Shown piece by piece: positions 16,725-20,929 of a stretch of 48,053 nt of DNA (position 1 is the stretch's first letter; each line of letters begins with the position of its first letter). The DNA is from a virus. Made by a program: the position numbers and the translations under genes. Location: the IMG/VR virus record IMGVR_UViG_3300043119_000523, positions 1-48,053 of that record. One strand, 5' to 3'. The notes beneath the pieces are model-generated. The model made no database searches, had not been told where the DNA came from, and saw only the letters and a program-made list of their open reading frames with translations.

Positions 16725-17036
16725 ATGAAATACGACAATCCTAGACTTAACGAGCGCCAGTCTACGCATGGCGATTTCCTCAGCACAGCCGACGCCGCGC
16801 AAAAGGTCAAAAGCGTACTGCGCCATACGGCTCAGACCTCCGGTGTCCGCCTCACTACTGTCCAGTGGGAAGTGGTAGACATGATCGCAACTAAGCTCGC
16901 CCGCGTCGTCAGCGGCAATCCGAATGAGCTTGACCACTGGAAGGATATTGCAGGTTATGCTGATCTGGCCGAAGCCCAGCTTATTCCTGTAACTGGCCAG
17001 AAGGTCCCGAGCAGCCCGTCGAAAAAGGAAGACTGA
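16725..17036 (+). CDS. DUF6378-type phage protein, 103 aa
   Basis: NERQSTHGDFLSTADAAQKV, then QWEVVDMIATKLARVVSGNP and DHWKDIAGYADLA match the pattern of the DUF6378 family, common in tailed phages, often near replication genes; function unestablished. ATG follows AAGGAGCCCTGAA. The product ends SKKED because those codons include AAGGAAGA, the ribosome site of the next gene. Confidence 0.75.
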   Translation: MKYDNPRLNERQSTHGDFLSTADAAQKVKSVLRHTAQTSGVRLTTVQWEVVDMIATKLARVVSGNPNELDHWKDIAGYADLAEAQLIPVTGQKVPSSPSKKED

Positions 17037-17037
17037 C

Positions 17038-17310
17038 ATGAACCAACATAAAGCAATGCAGGAAACACTGCAGCTAGCGCGCCTCGCCGGCATGGAAAAT
17101 CTCGTCAGTGACATTCCGGAGTTGGACTTTCCACACCTTCTTGACATGTACAATCGTGTTCACACAGGCGAGATCGAATTTTCGGAAGCCAAGCTCGGAC
17201 GCTGGCTAGGGTGGATGCAGGCTGCTGTTGTCGCAGCGGATATCGGCCTCACTCTCGAGGACATGAAAGCAATCAACAAGGCTAATGCCGATGACAAACA
17301 GTCCACCTAA
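17038..17310 (+). CDS. Hypothetical helical protein, 90 aa
   Basis: ATG one base past the previous stop, using AAGGAAGA. Mostly helical (MNQHKAMQETLQLARLAGME...), with GRWLGWMQAAVVAADIGLTL near the C-terminus, which is moderately hydrophobic but not a clear membrane span. Overlaps the polymerase fragment start by 26 bases. Possibly a small phage protein of the same helical type found beside DUF6378 genes. Confidence 0.6.
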   Translation: MNQHKAMQETLQLARLAGMENLVSDIPELDFPHLLDMYNRVHTGEIEFSEAKLGRWLGWMQAAVVAADIGLTLEDMKAINKANADDKQST

Positions 17311-18337
17311 GATCCTCATCTGCGGTGAAGCATACGGCCAAGCCGAGGAAGAAGCCGGGGTCCCCTTCATTGGGGCCTCCGGCAAATTGCTTCATAAGCT
17401 TCTCTCTGCCGTCGGCATCAACCGCGATCAGTGCCACTTCACCAATGTCTTCAACCTGAGGCCGAAGCCGCGCAACGACGTTTCCAACCTGTGCGGTCCG
17501 AAACACCACGGCATCAAGTGGATGCCGTACCTCAAGCGGGGCGAGTATGTCCGAGAAGATTACGAGTCAGAGCTCCTTCGTCTGTACGCTGAAGTGTCCG
17601 AGGTGCGACCAAATCTTGTCATTGCACTCGGGGCCAGTGCCGCATGGGCTTTCTGTAAAACCTCTGGCATCAAGCAAATCCGAGGAGCACCAACACTTGC
17701 TGATCCAGCAATCGCACGTCGATGCGGTGTCGAGCAGCTCAAGGTGCTTCCCTCTTATCACCCTGCAGCTCTTCTCCGGGAGTGGAAGCTTCGCCCTGTC
17801 TTATTCGCTGATTTGCGAAAGGCTGCCCGAGAAGCGGAGTTCCCTGAGCTTCGTCGGCCTTCTCGTGAAATCTGGCTGGACCCGACGCTCGATGACATGG
17901 CTGAGTTCAAGCGCCGCTTCATTGATCCGGCGCCTCGGATTAGCGTGGACATCGAAACGGTAGGGGACCAGATCACAATGGTCGGGTTCAGCCCCACGCC
18001 AGACCGAGCCCTCGTCGTGCCCTTCATTGACTTCCGAAAGCAGGACCGAAACTACTGGCGGACTTTCGGCGAGGAACGTGCGGCCTGGAACTTCGTCCGC
18101 GAGGTCACATCGATGCCGGACAAGGAGTGCGTTGGGCAAAATTTCAGCTACGACCTGAAATATCTATGGGCGCGCTACGGTATGCCGCCTATGAACTTCG
18201 AGCATGATACGATGCTTCTGCATCACGCCCTTCAGCTGGAAATGGAGAAGTCATTAGGATTTTTGGGTACTCTTTACACGAGTGAAAGTTCGTGGAAGAT
18301 GATGCGAAAAACAGGGACACTAAAAAAGGAAGATTAA
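17285..18337 (+). CDS. Split DNA polymerase A, fragment 1: uracil-DNA glycosylase plus 3'-5' exonuclease (ExoI/II), 350 aa
   Basis: Residues ~8-175 are a family-4-type uracil-DNA glycosylase: KILICGEAYGQAEEEAG, VPFIGASGKLL, TNVFNLRPKPRND and SYHPAALLREW (HPAALLR-type motif). Residues ~215-350 are the first part of a PolA DnaQ-like exonuclease: ExoI ISVDIET (DxE) and ExoII GQNFSYDLKYLW. The frame stops at TAA 18335-18337 shortly after SSWKMMRK, before any ExoIII motif. The missing YxxxD and the polymerase domain are on 19325-20929. UDG-PolA fusions are known in tailed phages; here the fusion is fissioned. Ends RKTGTLKKED, nearly repeated at the end of the HNH gene. Confidence 0.9.
   Translation: MPMTNSPPKILICGEAYGQAEEEAGVPFIGASGKLLHKLLSAVGINRDQCHFTNVFNLRPKPRNDVSNLCGPKHHGIKWMPYLKRGEYVREDYESELLRLYAEVSEVRPNLVIALGASAAWAFCKTSGIKQIRGAPTLADPAIARRCGVEQLKVLPSYHPAALLREWKLRPVLFADLRKAAREAEFPELRRPSREIWLDPTLDDMAEFKRRFIDPAPRISVDIETVGDQITMVGFSPTPDRALVVPFIDFRKQDRNYWRTFGEERAAWNFVREVTSMPDKECVGQNFSYDLKYLWARYGMPPMNFEHDTMLLHHALQLEMEKSLGFLGTLYTSESSWKMMRKTGTLKKED
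18305..18337 (+). repeat. Tail repeat copy 1 (end of polymerase fragment 1)
   Basis: Eleven codons encode RKTGTLKKED-stop. Compared with 18780-18812 (RKNGTIKKED-stop), 24 of 33 bases match and most differences are third-position. Part of the match (AAGGARGAT) is a ribosome-binding constraint, but RKxGTx is not. Confidence 0.6.
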
Positions 18338-18338
18338 C

Positions 18339-18812
18339 ATGGCCGATTGTAAAGTAGAAGGCTGTTCCCGCGTCAGAGAAACTTTAATGGGCTACTGTGT
18401 CATGCACTATAAGAGACTCAAAAGAAATGGCACAACGGATAGAGTACTGCAAAAATACACTGGTCTAGAAACTTGTTTAGAGTGCGGTGAACTTAGCCCT
18501 AGGATGCGAAAGGGTTATTGCCACGCTTGTTCGATCAGGCTCTCGCGGAAAGGTTATGCCGCAAGAGACAGAGGAGTAAAGGGAAAAGGCTGTGTAAACT
18601 CTGCAGGTTATGTTGTACTAACAGTTGACGGTAAAAGAGTTTACGAACATCGGCAAAAAGTTTTTGCCCAACCAGGTGAAATCATTCACCATAAAGACGA
18701 AAGTAAAATAAATAATAATGTAGACAACCTGCAAATACTTTCGTCGCAATCCGAGCATATGAAGTTACATCAGGCGGTGCGAAAGAACGGCACGATTAAG
18801 AAGGAGGATTAA
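18339..18812 (+). CDS. HNH homing endonuclease, 157 aa
   Basis: Two N-terminal zinc-binding-like clusters (CKVEGC...GYCVMHY and CLECGE...GYCHAC), then an HNH_3-type nuclease: VYEHRQKVFAQPG, IIHHKDESKINNN, VDNLQILSSQSEHMKLH. It starts one base after fragment 1 and uses AAGGAAGA in its end. Visibly richer in A+T than flanking genes, with AGA/AAA/TTA codons, indicating recent entry. It ends RKNGTIKKED (18780-18809), matching the fragment 1 tail at 8 of 10 residues with different codons. Probably a free-standing homing endonuclease cutting intact or HNH-less polymerase loci. Confidence 0.9.
   Translation: MADCKVEGCSRVRETLMGYCVMHYKRLKRNGTTDRVLQKYTGLETCLECGELSPRMRKGYCHACSIRLSRKGYAARDRGVKGKGCVNSAGYVVLTVDGKRVYEHRQKVFAQPGEIIHHKDESKINNNVDNLQILSSQSEHMKLHQAVRKNGTIKKED
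18780..18812 (+). repeat. Tail repeat copy 2 (end of HNH gene)
   Basis: Encodes RKNGTIKKED-stop and supplies AAGGAGGA for the ORF at 18814. If the HNH element inserted just before the end of fragment 1, this would be the ancestral tail and 18305-18337 a tail brought in by the element. That is inference from one short match. Confidence 0.55.
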
Positions 18813-18813
18813 G

Positions 18814-18990
18814 ATGGGAAAGCCACTCATACCAGCGGACTTGGCCGCCAAGCTGAAAGAGGAAGACCCACGAAGAACCTGGTCCGATGTAGCAAAGCTT
18901 CTTAAAAAGCTCGGGTATCCAGAAGACCCATTTCCAGCTTTTCAAGCGTCTTCCGTTTATCAGAGCGTGCACAAGGGAACTTACAAATGA
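18814..18990 (+). CDS. Small protein inside split polymerase locus, 58 aa
   Basis: ATG one base after the HNH stop, with AAGGAGGA at good spacing; ends in ATGA with the next gene. Sequence opens MGKPLIPADLAAKLKEEDPR; RTWSDVAKLLKKLGYPED could be a helix-turn-helix-like segment. Codon use is intermediate. It may have belonged to the locus before the HNH gene arrived. No function assigned. Confidence 0.6.
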   Translation: MGKPLIPADLAAKLKEEDPRRTWSDVAKLLKKLGYPEDPFPAFQASSVYQSVHKGTYK

Positions 18991-19340
18991 TCTACCTCGC
19001 TTCTCCTTATTCCCATCCCGACCCTCTCATCATGCGGACGCGCTACCTTCTGGCCGAGCAAGTCACAGCCGGTCTTCTCGCCAAGTCCCTCTGGACCTAC
19101 TCTCCCATCGTCCACTGCCACGAGCTTGCGGCGCGCCATTCACTCCCAACTGACTTCGCCTATTGGCAGGAATACAACATCGACATGCTTCGCCGTTGCG
19201 ATAGGTTCTATGTCTTATCTATCCCAGGCTGGCGAGAGAGCAAGGGCGTAGCAGGTGAAAGTGCCGTAGCCCATATGCTCAACCTGCCTATGGCGCTTAT
19301 CAATGAAGAGGGAGTTGTAACACCGTGGCCCGTATCATAA
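18987..19340 (+). CDS. DUF1937 protein, nucleoside-deoxyribosyltransferase-like fold, 117 aa
   Basis: MIYLASPYSHPDPLIMRTRY is the DUF1937 signature; DMLRRCDRFYVLSIPGWRES and SKGVAGESAVAHML complete it. The family resembles nucleoside 2-deoxyribosyltransferases (GEx2A-like end), so a role in nucleotide metabolism is possible, though activity is unproven. It is ATGA-coupled upstream and overlaps the GTG start of polymerase fragment 2 by 16 bases, so translation of that fragment may depend on it. Confidence 0.8.
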   Translation: MIYLASPYSHPDPLIMRTRYLLAEQVTAGLLAKSLWTYSPIVHCHELAARHSLPTDFAYWQEYNIDMLRRCDRFYVLSIPGWRESKGVAGESAVAHMLNLPMALINEEGVVTPWPVS

Positions 19341-20929
19341 ACTCAGGCGATCTAACCCCTGCCGCCCTCCAAGCCCTGCCACAGCACGACCTCGACTGCA
19401 TCTATAACGGCCTTGACTGCTGCGTCACGCTCGAAGTCTTGGAGGTCTTGCTCGGCGAACTTGACGAGACCTCTTCGGAAACTTACGCCTTCAGCCGTGC
19501 CCTTCAAGGCCCGATCATCGATATGGCCATGCGCGGTATCAGGATTGATTTCCGCAAGCGCGATGCAGTACTGGCCGAGTTCGAGGCGCGCCGTGAAAAA
19601 GTCGGCAATGCCCTCGACCGTATCATCCGCGAGGGCATCGGCGTAGATATCGACTGGAATAGCCCGAAGCAGTTGATGAACCTGTTCTACGACGTGATGC
19701 AGTTTAAGCCTATCAGGAAGCGCAATCCAAAGGGAATGCTCGTTCCGACGATCAATCGTGATGCAATTGAAAAGCTTCAGTCGCATTACTACGCCGGCCC
19801 ACTCTGCGCGCACCTCCTTCTGCTTCGCGACCTGAACAAAAAGATCGGCTTTCTCAAAACAGGCATCGATCCGGATGGCCGCATCCGAGCTGGCTTTAAC
19901 ATTGCCGGCACCACGACAGGCCGCCTGTCTTCTTCCATGTCCGAGTTCGGCACAGGTACAAACCTCCAGAACGTGGACCGTGACCTGAAGAAAATCTTCA
20001 TCGCCGATCCGGGCTATAAGTTTGTCAACCTCGACCTTGAACAAGGAGACAGCCGTAATGTCGGCGCTATCATTTGGAACCTGTTTTACGAAAGCCACGG
20101 CGCCACGGAGGCCGGCCGTTATCTCGACGCTTGCGAGTCCGGTGATCTTCACACGACCGTTTGCTCGATGGCTTGGTCGAACCTTGCATGGCCTGAGGAT
20201 AACAAGGCCAAGCGAGAAGTAGCTGACGGCATTGCATATCGTAACTTCAGCTACCGCGATCTAGCCAAGAAGCTAGGTCACGGCTCCAACTACCTCGGCC
20301 AACCGAAGACTATGGCAGGGCACTCCAAGGTCGAACAGCCTCTGATCGAAGACTTCCAGGACCGCTACTTTGGCGCCTTCCCACTCATCGGTTCCACTTA
20401 TGGCCGGAGCCATGAGCCCAACTGGCACAACTGGGTCAAGCAGCAAATCTGGGATTTCGGCTACATCACTTCTCTCATGGGCCGGCGCAGGTTCTTCTAC
20501 GGCAATCCCGCCGATGAGTCCACCCTCCGCGAAGCCGTGGCCTACGAACCGCAGAGCCTGACCGGTGATGAAATCAACACAGGGATGCTTCGTATCTGGC
20601 GCCAGTTTCCATGGGTGCAACTTCTCTGCCAGGTCCATGACTCGATCCTACTTCAAGTCCCTGAGGAAATGTCGGATGACGTTATCCAGCTTCTTCTCGA
20701 TACGCTTCGCATTACTCTGTTGCTTAAAGGCGGGCGCGAGTTCTCTGTGCCGACAGAGGCCAAGGTCGGCTGGAATTGGGGCGATGCACCGAGTGAGAAG
20801 GAAATCTCTCGCGGCGCTGAGCCAAATCCTGACGGCATGATAAAATGGAAGGGTGCTGACTTGCGCCGCCGTACTGAACACCCGATTGAAAAAGTCGGGG
20901 GCAAACTTACATTGAGGGGTATATTGTGA
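19325..20929 (+). CDS. Split DNA polymerase A, fragment 2: ExoIII motif plus polymerase domain, 534 aa
   Basis: GTG start 19325 follows GAGGGAGTTGTAACACC. Residues ~20-45 hold the missing exonuclease motif III, IYNGLDCCVT (YxxxD). The polymerase palm and fingers follow: TTGRLSSSMSEFGTGTNLQN, motif A NLDLEQGDSRNVG (DxxQxxxR), motif B YRDLAKKLGHGSNYLG, and motif C QVHDSILLQVP. The O-helix residue aligned with E. coli F762 is His, and motif C reads HDS rather than HDE. Together with fragment 1 it covers a whole UDG-PolA with little missing, so a two-chain enzyme is likely. Overlaps the DUF3987-type gene by 4 bases. Confidence 0.92.
   Translation: MARIINSGDLTPAALQALPQHDLDCIYNGLDCCVTLEVLEVLLGELDETSSETYAFSRALQGPIIDMAMRGIRIDFRKRDAVLAEFEARREKVGNALDRIIREGIGVDIDWNSPKQLMNLFYDVMQFKPIRKRNPKGMLVPTINRDAIEKLQSHYYAGPLCAHLLLLRDLNKKIGFLKTGIDPDGRIRAGFNIAGTTTGRLSSSMSEFGTGTNLQNVDRDLKKIFIADPGYKFVNLDLEQGDSRNVGAIIWNLFYESHGATEAGRYLDACESGDLHTTVCSMAWSNLAWPEDNKAKREVADGIAYRNFSYRDLAKKLGHGSNYLGQPKTMAGHSKVEQPLIEDFQDRYFGAFPLIGSTYGRSHEPNWHNWVKQQIWDFGYITSLMGRRRFFYGNPADESTLREAVAYEPQSLTGDEINTGMLRIWRQFPWVQLLCQVHDSILLQVPEEMSDDVIQLLLDTLRITLLLKGGREFSVPTEAKVGWNWGDAPSEKEISRGAEPNPDGMIKWKGADLRRRTEHPIEKVGGKLTLRGIL

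Follow-up and report, generated by a model that had tools for sequence, protein, structure and literature searches.

Genes at the exonuclease junction

The window analysed here is a stretch of 48,053 nucleotides from a virus record, with a GC content of 57%. Three consecutive genes on its plus strand concern us: a host gene encoding a uracil-DNA glycosylase (UDG)-like domain and a 3'-5' exonuclease (17285-18337, its start being likely 17285 or slightly downstream), an HNH endonuclease gene (18339-18812), and an open reading frame of 58 amino acids (18814-18990). These are followed by a DUF1937 gene (18987-19340) and then by a family A polymerase gene (19325-20929).

The product of the host gene matched the Pfam domain UDG (E = 9e-21), DNA_pol_A_exo1 (E = 0.0014, under the curated cut-off), and the DNA polymerase family PHROG 17 (E = 1.8e-23). 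Its AlphaFold model, based on 59 sequences, reached a mean pLDDT of 91, with disorder in the last nine residues only. This gene had been described in the original prediction as a polymerase fragment. That an insertion generated such a fragment does not hold: the gene encodes a complete UDG and 3'-5' exonuclease protein, separate from the polymerase gene. Separate exonuclease and polymerase genes are also present in many relatives that lack the HNH gene, which rules out the HNH gene as the element that split the polymerase. The split between exonuclease and polymerase is ancestral. Across phages the organization of this module varies. In some, UDG, exonuclease, and polymerase form a single gene (L003:3028-5367, L004:2968-5400, and L033:3240-5731), and in the clade of the window (17285-20929) they are encoded by two genes with none or a few small genes between them.

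The HNH gene has a GC content of 43%, compared to 57% for the window. Its product displayed two Cys-rich motifs at the N-terminus and an HNH core at residues ~113-140 (about 18675-18758). The match to HNH_3 (E = 2.2e-4, 21.2 bits) is under the Pfam curated cut-off of 24.8, and ten PHROG families of HNH endonucleases matched at E<=1.3e-3, the best of them at 8.9e-8. The catalytic His and Asn residues are present, as IIHHKDESKINNNVDNL...EHMKLH lines up with HNH homologues. A single-sequence AlphaFold prediction of this protein gave a pLDDT of 35 and no usable model. A search of phages at E 1e-5 returned no second record carrying the HNH gene of the window. Likewise, no second copy of the insertion was found in IMG/VR, where only distant relatives (44-45% over the HNH core) were detected.

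A duplicated exonuclease end

The exonuclease and HNH products end alike, in RK-x-GT-x-KKED. Copy 1 of this tail (RKTGTLKKED plus stop, 18305-18337, plus strand) belongs to the exonuclease gene and reads, through the next start codon (18305-18341), CGA AAA ACA GGG ACA CTA AAA AAG GAA GAT TAA c ATG. Copy 2 (RKNGTIKKED plus stop, 18780-18812, plus strand) belongs to the HNH gene and reads, in the same manner (18780-18816), CGA AAG AAC GGC ACG ATT AAG AAG GAG GAT TAA g ATG. The two are identical at 8/10 residues and 21/30 bases, or 24/33 bases when the stop codon is counted, and seven of their nine base differences fall on third codon positions. This duplication is directly observed, and re-reading the sequence confirmed the coordinates, frames, residues, stop codons, and one-base gaps before the next ATG that had been reported for it. 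The HNH reading frame is therefore flanked by two exonuclease C-terminal ends, the downstream one consisting of the last ~10-11 codons only. Copy 1 contains a motif resembling a ribosome site, AAGGAAG (18326-18332, plus strand), for the HNH gene, and copy 2 contains the ribosome site AAGGAGG (18802-18808, plus strand) for the 58-amino-acid gene, whose start junction follows this copy.

Such resemblance could in principle arise without homology, if KKED were dictated by the AAGGARGA ribosome site of the next gene and RK-x-GT were a coincidence. The product of another operon gene (16725-17036) does end in KKED, as originally noted, and an AAGGAGG-like site is found inside many tails of the exonuclease family. 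We evaluated the tails with a profile derived from the exonuclease ends of ~100 distinct relatives (W-K-x-M-R...T-I/L-K-K/R-E/D-D/E). The HNH end scored 16.1, against a mean of 15.3 for true family tails and 1.9 for the best among ~5,100 other ORF ends of all loci. The 16725-17036 tail scored -9.4, in agreement with the claim that RK-x-GT goes beyond a ribosome-site effect. Moreover, when 119 loci including the window were scanned over the 3 kb downstream of the exonuclease, none of the 118 relatives displayed a second exonuclease tail at a comparable score, and copy 2 resembles the exonuclease end of a relative also outside KKED (see below). The tail profile and the scan effectively rule out chance or ribosome-site convergence, which we regard as exceedingly improbable.

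The possibility that the tail is an ordinary part of the HNH family was also ruled out. Most homologues stop soon after EHxxLH, with unrelated residues, and others continue into further domains; an end of the RK-x-GT-x-KKED type occurred in none of ~80 C-termini. Homologues elsewhere sharing this tail, which the original prediction had named as evidence against it, were thus absent from this set. The alignment of PHROG 7545 to the HNH protein extends through residue 156. Considering the profile score, the scan of 119 loci, and the ends of the homologues, we conclude from these sequence comparisons that the HNH C-terminus is a genuine copy of the exonuclease end.

The closest relative without the HNH gene, and the only close one available, is the IMG/VR contig L001, whose exonuclease is 79% identical to that of the window. 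Its exonuclease gene ends CGG AAG AAC GCA ACG ATT AAG AAG GAG GAC TGA c ATGGG, and is identical to copy 2 at 26/30 bases and to copy 1 at 18/30. When the last 12 bases, which hold the ribosome site, are set aside, these values are 15/18 and 9/18, respectively. Copy 2 and L001 also have a common junction, with a strong AAGGAGG at the same spacing and the stop codon followed by one base and ATGGG. A T-x-K tail is found in 81 relatives; of these tails, 63 are nearer to copy 2, 13 are ties, and 5 are nearer to copy 1. It is therefore the downstream copy that fits the native end of the relatives, while the upstream copy has diverged. This agrees with the expectation that an HNH-less relative should carry a copy 2-type end; the opposite case, an HNH-less relative with a copy 1-type tail, did not turn up, as L001, the closest, is copy 2-type. 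No HNH gene follows the exonuclease in L001 and in most of the 118 relatives; three have another HNH gene at this position, and that of the window is absent from the relatives.

The proposed inserted block and its origin

When the entire 48 kb were subjected to maximal-scoring-segment analysis, the top-ranking AT-rich island spanned positions 18240-19011, with a score of 26.6 (15.1 for the runner-up). Its right edge varies with the AT model used (18770 or 19011): under the stricter model the island covers 18240-18770, starting within the exonuclease gene and ending just before copy 2. A changepoint from host-like to HNH-like codon usage was located at 18254, and only 1/5000 permutations produced one equally strong; the left edge of the putatively imported end is uncertain by ~15 bases. 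The shift in codons and GC content, itself directly observed, already begins ~50-60 bases ahead of the duplicated part. When GC3 of the gene end is compared with that of the gene body, the exonuclease of the window ranks lowest among 106 distinct genes. Composition by itself is weak evidence for an insertion, because an equally GC3-poor stretch is found near 17645 (17640-17730), in the UDG part of the host gene, where GC3 is also low in L001. The weight of the edge evidence is in the coincidence of the island edges with the duplication. An insertion near the exonuclease end that supplied a replacement tail, as originally proposed, is in line with this coincidence, as under the stricter setting the island covers the replacement end and the HNH gene and stops before copy 2.

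Based on these findings, we consider it likely that an HNH element integrated into the exonuclease gene at its 3' end together with a replacement gene end, and that the displaced native tail is now the HNH C-terminus. A putative free-standing, homing-type HNH endonuclease gene would have entered the exonuclease 3' end within a phage replication operon. The inserted block, from ~18240 to 18775, would consist of an AT-rich exonuclease end and an HNH frame lacking its own stop codon. Its exonuclease part (18240-18337, plus strand, with HNH-like codons and including copy 1) would replace the last ~30 codons, bringing its own stop codon and a weak ribosome site. These imported codons would complete the host exonuclease: they are in frame, in a reading frame continuous from 17285 to 18337, and by alignment and predicted fold they encode the last two helices and the tail of the protein. 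The displaced tail, ~10-11 codons in frame behind the HNH domain, would in turn give the HNH gene its stop codon and retain the ribosome site for the 58-amino-acid gene. The copy 2-type tail of L001 and the HNH homologues without such a tail favour this part of the original prediction. We infer that the whole block was transferred in one piece through endonuclease-driven recombination, and that its divergent end, owing to donor origin and possibly to selection too, shields the occupied allele from cutting. Chimeric assembly could conceivably be the source of the arrangement, although frames and gene spacing are intact.

As to the source of the imported end, both copies encode glycine within RK-x-GT and share CGA, GAT, and TAA; the corresponding positions of L001 are alanine, CGG, GAC, and TGA. 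In addition, the protein features of the imported end (GT-YTSE-SWKMM) are nearest to those of L001. The glycine of both copies and these features suggest that the imported end derives from the own lineage of this phage; a distant donor for copy 1 is disfavoured by the same features. The shared letters and the same-lineage features would also fit a local event, in which insertion of the HNH gene duplicated the 3' end, like a target site, and copy 1 with the part upstream of it later drifted to AT-rich codons. We find this scenario unlikely, as the shift in codons and GC content runs ~50-60 bases beyond the duplicated part, and the two copies differ at 9/30 bases, whereas copy 2 differs from the more distant L001 at only 4/30.

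An alternative that we hold possible, if somewhat doubtful, corresponds to the original prediction in its stronger form. It retains the anatomy of an imported replacement end and adds that its tail was recoded by selection: the HNH enzyme would have its site in the native gene end, and the occupied allele would be uncuttable. In favour of recoding, third positions account for most differences between the copies, none of 106 distinct relatives has an end as strongly shifted in codons as the imported one, and the ordered last helices are preserved at the level of the protein. Nevertheless, codons for the same residue are identical in 3/8 cases between the copies, compared to 0.46 generally between this phage and L001. 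Because codon identity of the copies is near the level seen between phage and L001, a donor about as diverged as L001 is enough and special recoding is unnecessary. Furthermore, cutting by free-standing phage endonucleases can take place hundreds of bases away (PMC2988022). Protection from self-cleavage is a plausible possibility. We only tentatively picture the block as a phage HNH cassette that carries a divergent, cleavage-proof end of its target gene, which would repair the gene, protect the allele, and recycle the native end as nuclease C-terminus and ribosome site.

Similar systems and other HNH genes at the junction

The arrangement proposed here is reminiscent of mobile ORFs that form hybrid genes in fungal mitochondria, described for atp6 of Allomyces macrogynus and for atp6, atp9, cox2, and nad3 of Glomus sp. 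(PMC3630166). In these cases, the native ends downstream of the mobile ORF share 91-98% identity with those of a relative, and the imported ends 64-81%; the proteins are almost unchanged, and the divergence is mostly synonymous (PMC3630166). The comparison with Allomyces atp6 made in the original prediction is apt, in view of the matching anatomy and identity pattern. In these fungi as in the window, an endonuclease ORF is located near the 3' end of a gene, with a replacement C-terminus upstream and the native C-terminus downstream. The native end is again near that of a relative, and the imported end has diverged mostly synonymously. The fungal elements, however, are mitochondrial and encode LAGLIDADG or GIY-YIG enzymes, whereas ours is in a virus record and encodes an HNH enzyme. 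In the window, unlike in these fungi, the duplication comprises a very short end of ~10 codons, which upon translation forms the HNH C-terminus and which retains the ribosome site for the downstream gene. By analogy, the element of the window would work like the mobile ORFs of Allomyces and Glomus, without being a member of that class.

In T4-like phages, the seg and mob genes, mobE in nrdA of Aeh1, and seg43 of phage 25 are free-standing homing endonucleases. Such phage enzymes move through double-strand-break repair with co-conversion of the flanks, and some have inserted into essential genes (PMC2988022). Similar to the HNH gene of the window, they are intronless and lie within or next to replication and nucleotide genes, some within coding sequence. 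The passages of this review considered here describe gene splitting rather than a replaced end with a captured native end. In the open-access literature, we found no phage precedent for the replacement of a gene end by an endonuclease gene. Gene-end replacement is known from fungal mitochondria; the present case would place it in a bacterial virus, with an HNH endonuclease. According to the proposed history, a replication operon can take up an intronless nuclease gene within its coding sequence and yet not be destroyed. The two alleles permit a concrete test of whether synonymous divergence at its end shields the occupied allele. The arrangement also provides a signature for systematic searches of phage genomes, namely, a family-type gene tail that terminates an adjacent HNH gene.

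The exonuclease-polymerase junction is a repeated site of HNH genes. Three relatives have an HNH gene that begins right at the exonuclease stop codon, as in the window (L045:2672-3142, L067:6008-6604, and L179:1548-1985), yet none of them has a second exonuclease tail. The HNH proteins of all three are of other families than that of the window: those of L045 and L067 are PHROG 99/59-like, and that of L179 resembles the one from L045. GC3 is somewhat low in the exonuclease ends of L179 and L045 (ranks 7 and 10 of 106), and not in that of L067. In L012 (6575-7039), an HNH gene is located farther downstream of the exonuclease.

HNH genes were also found next to other genes. In Vibrio phage 1.097.O (L090:320-1575), a distant HNH homologue is located between two ORFs that both carry the annotation thymidylate synthase complementing protein; the arrangement has the appearance of an HNH gene interrupting thyX. 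On another viral contig (L006:3884-5306), a short HNH gene and the beginning of a DNA polymerase-like gene overlap.
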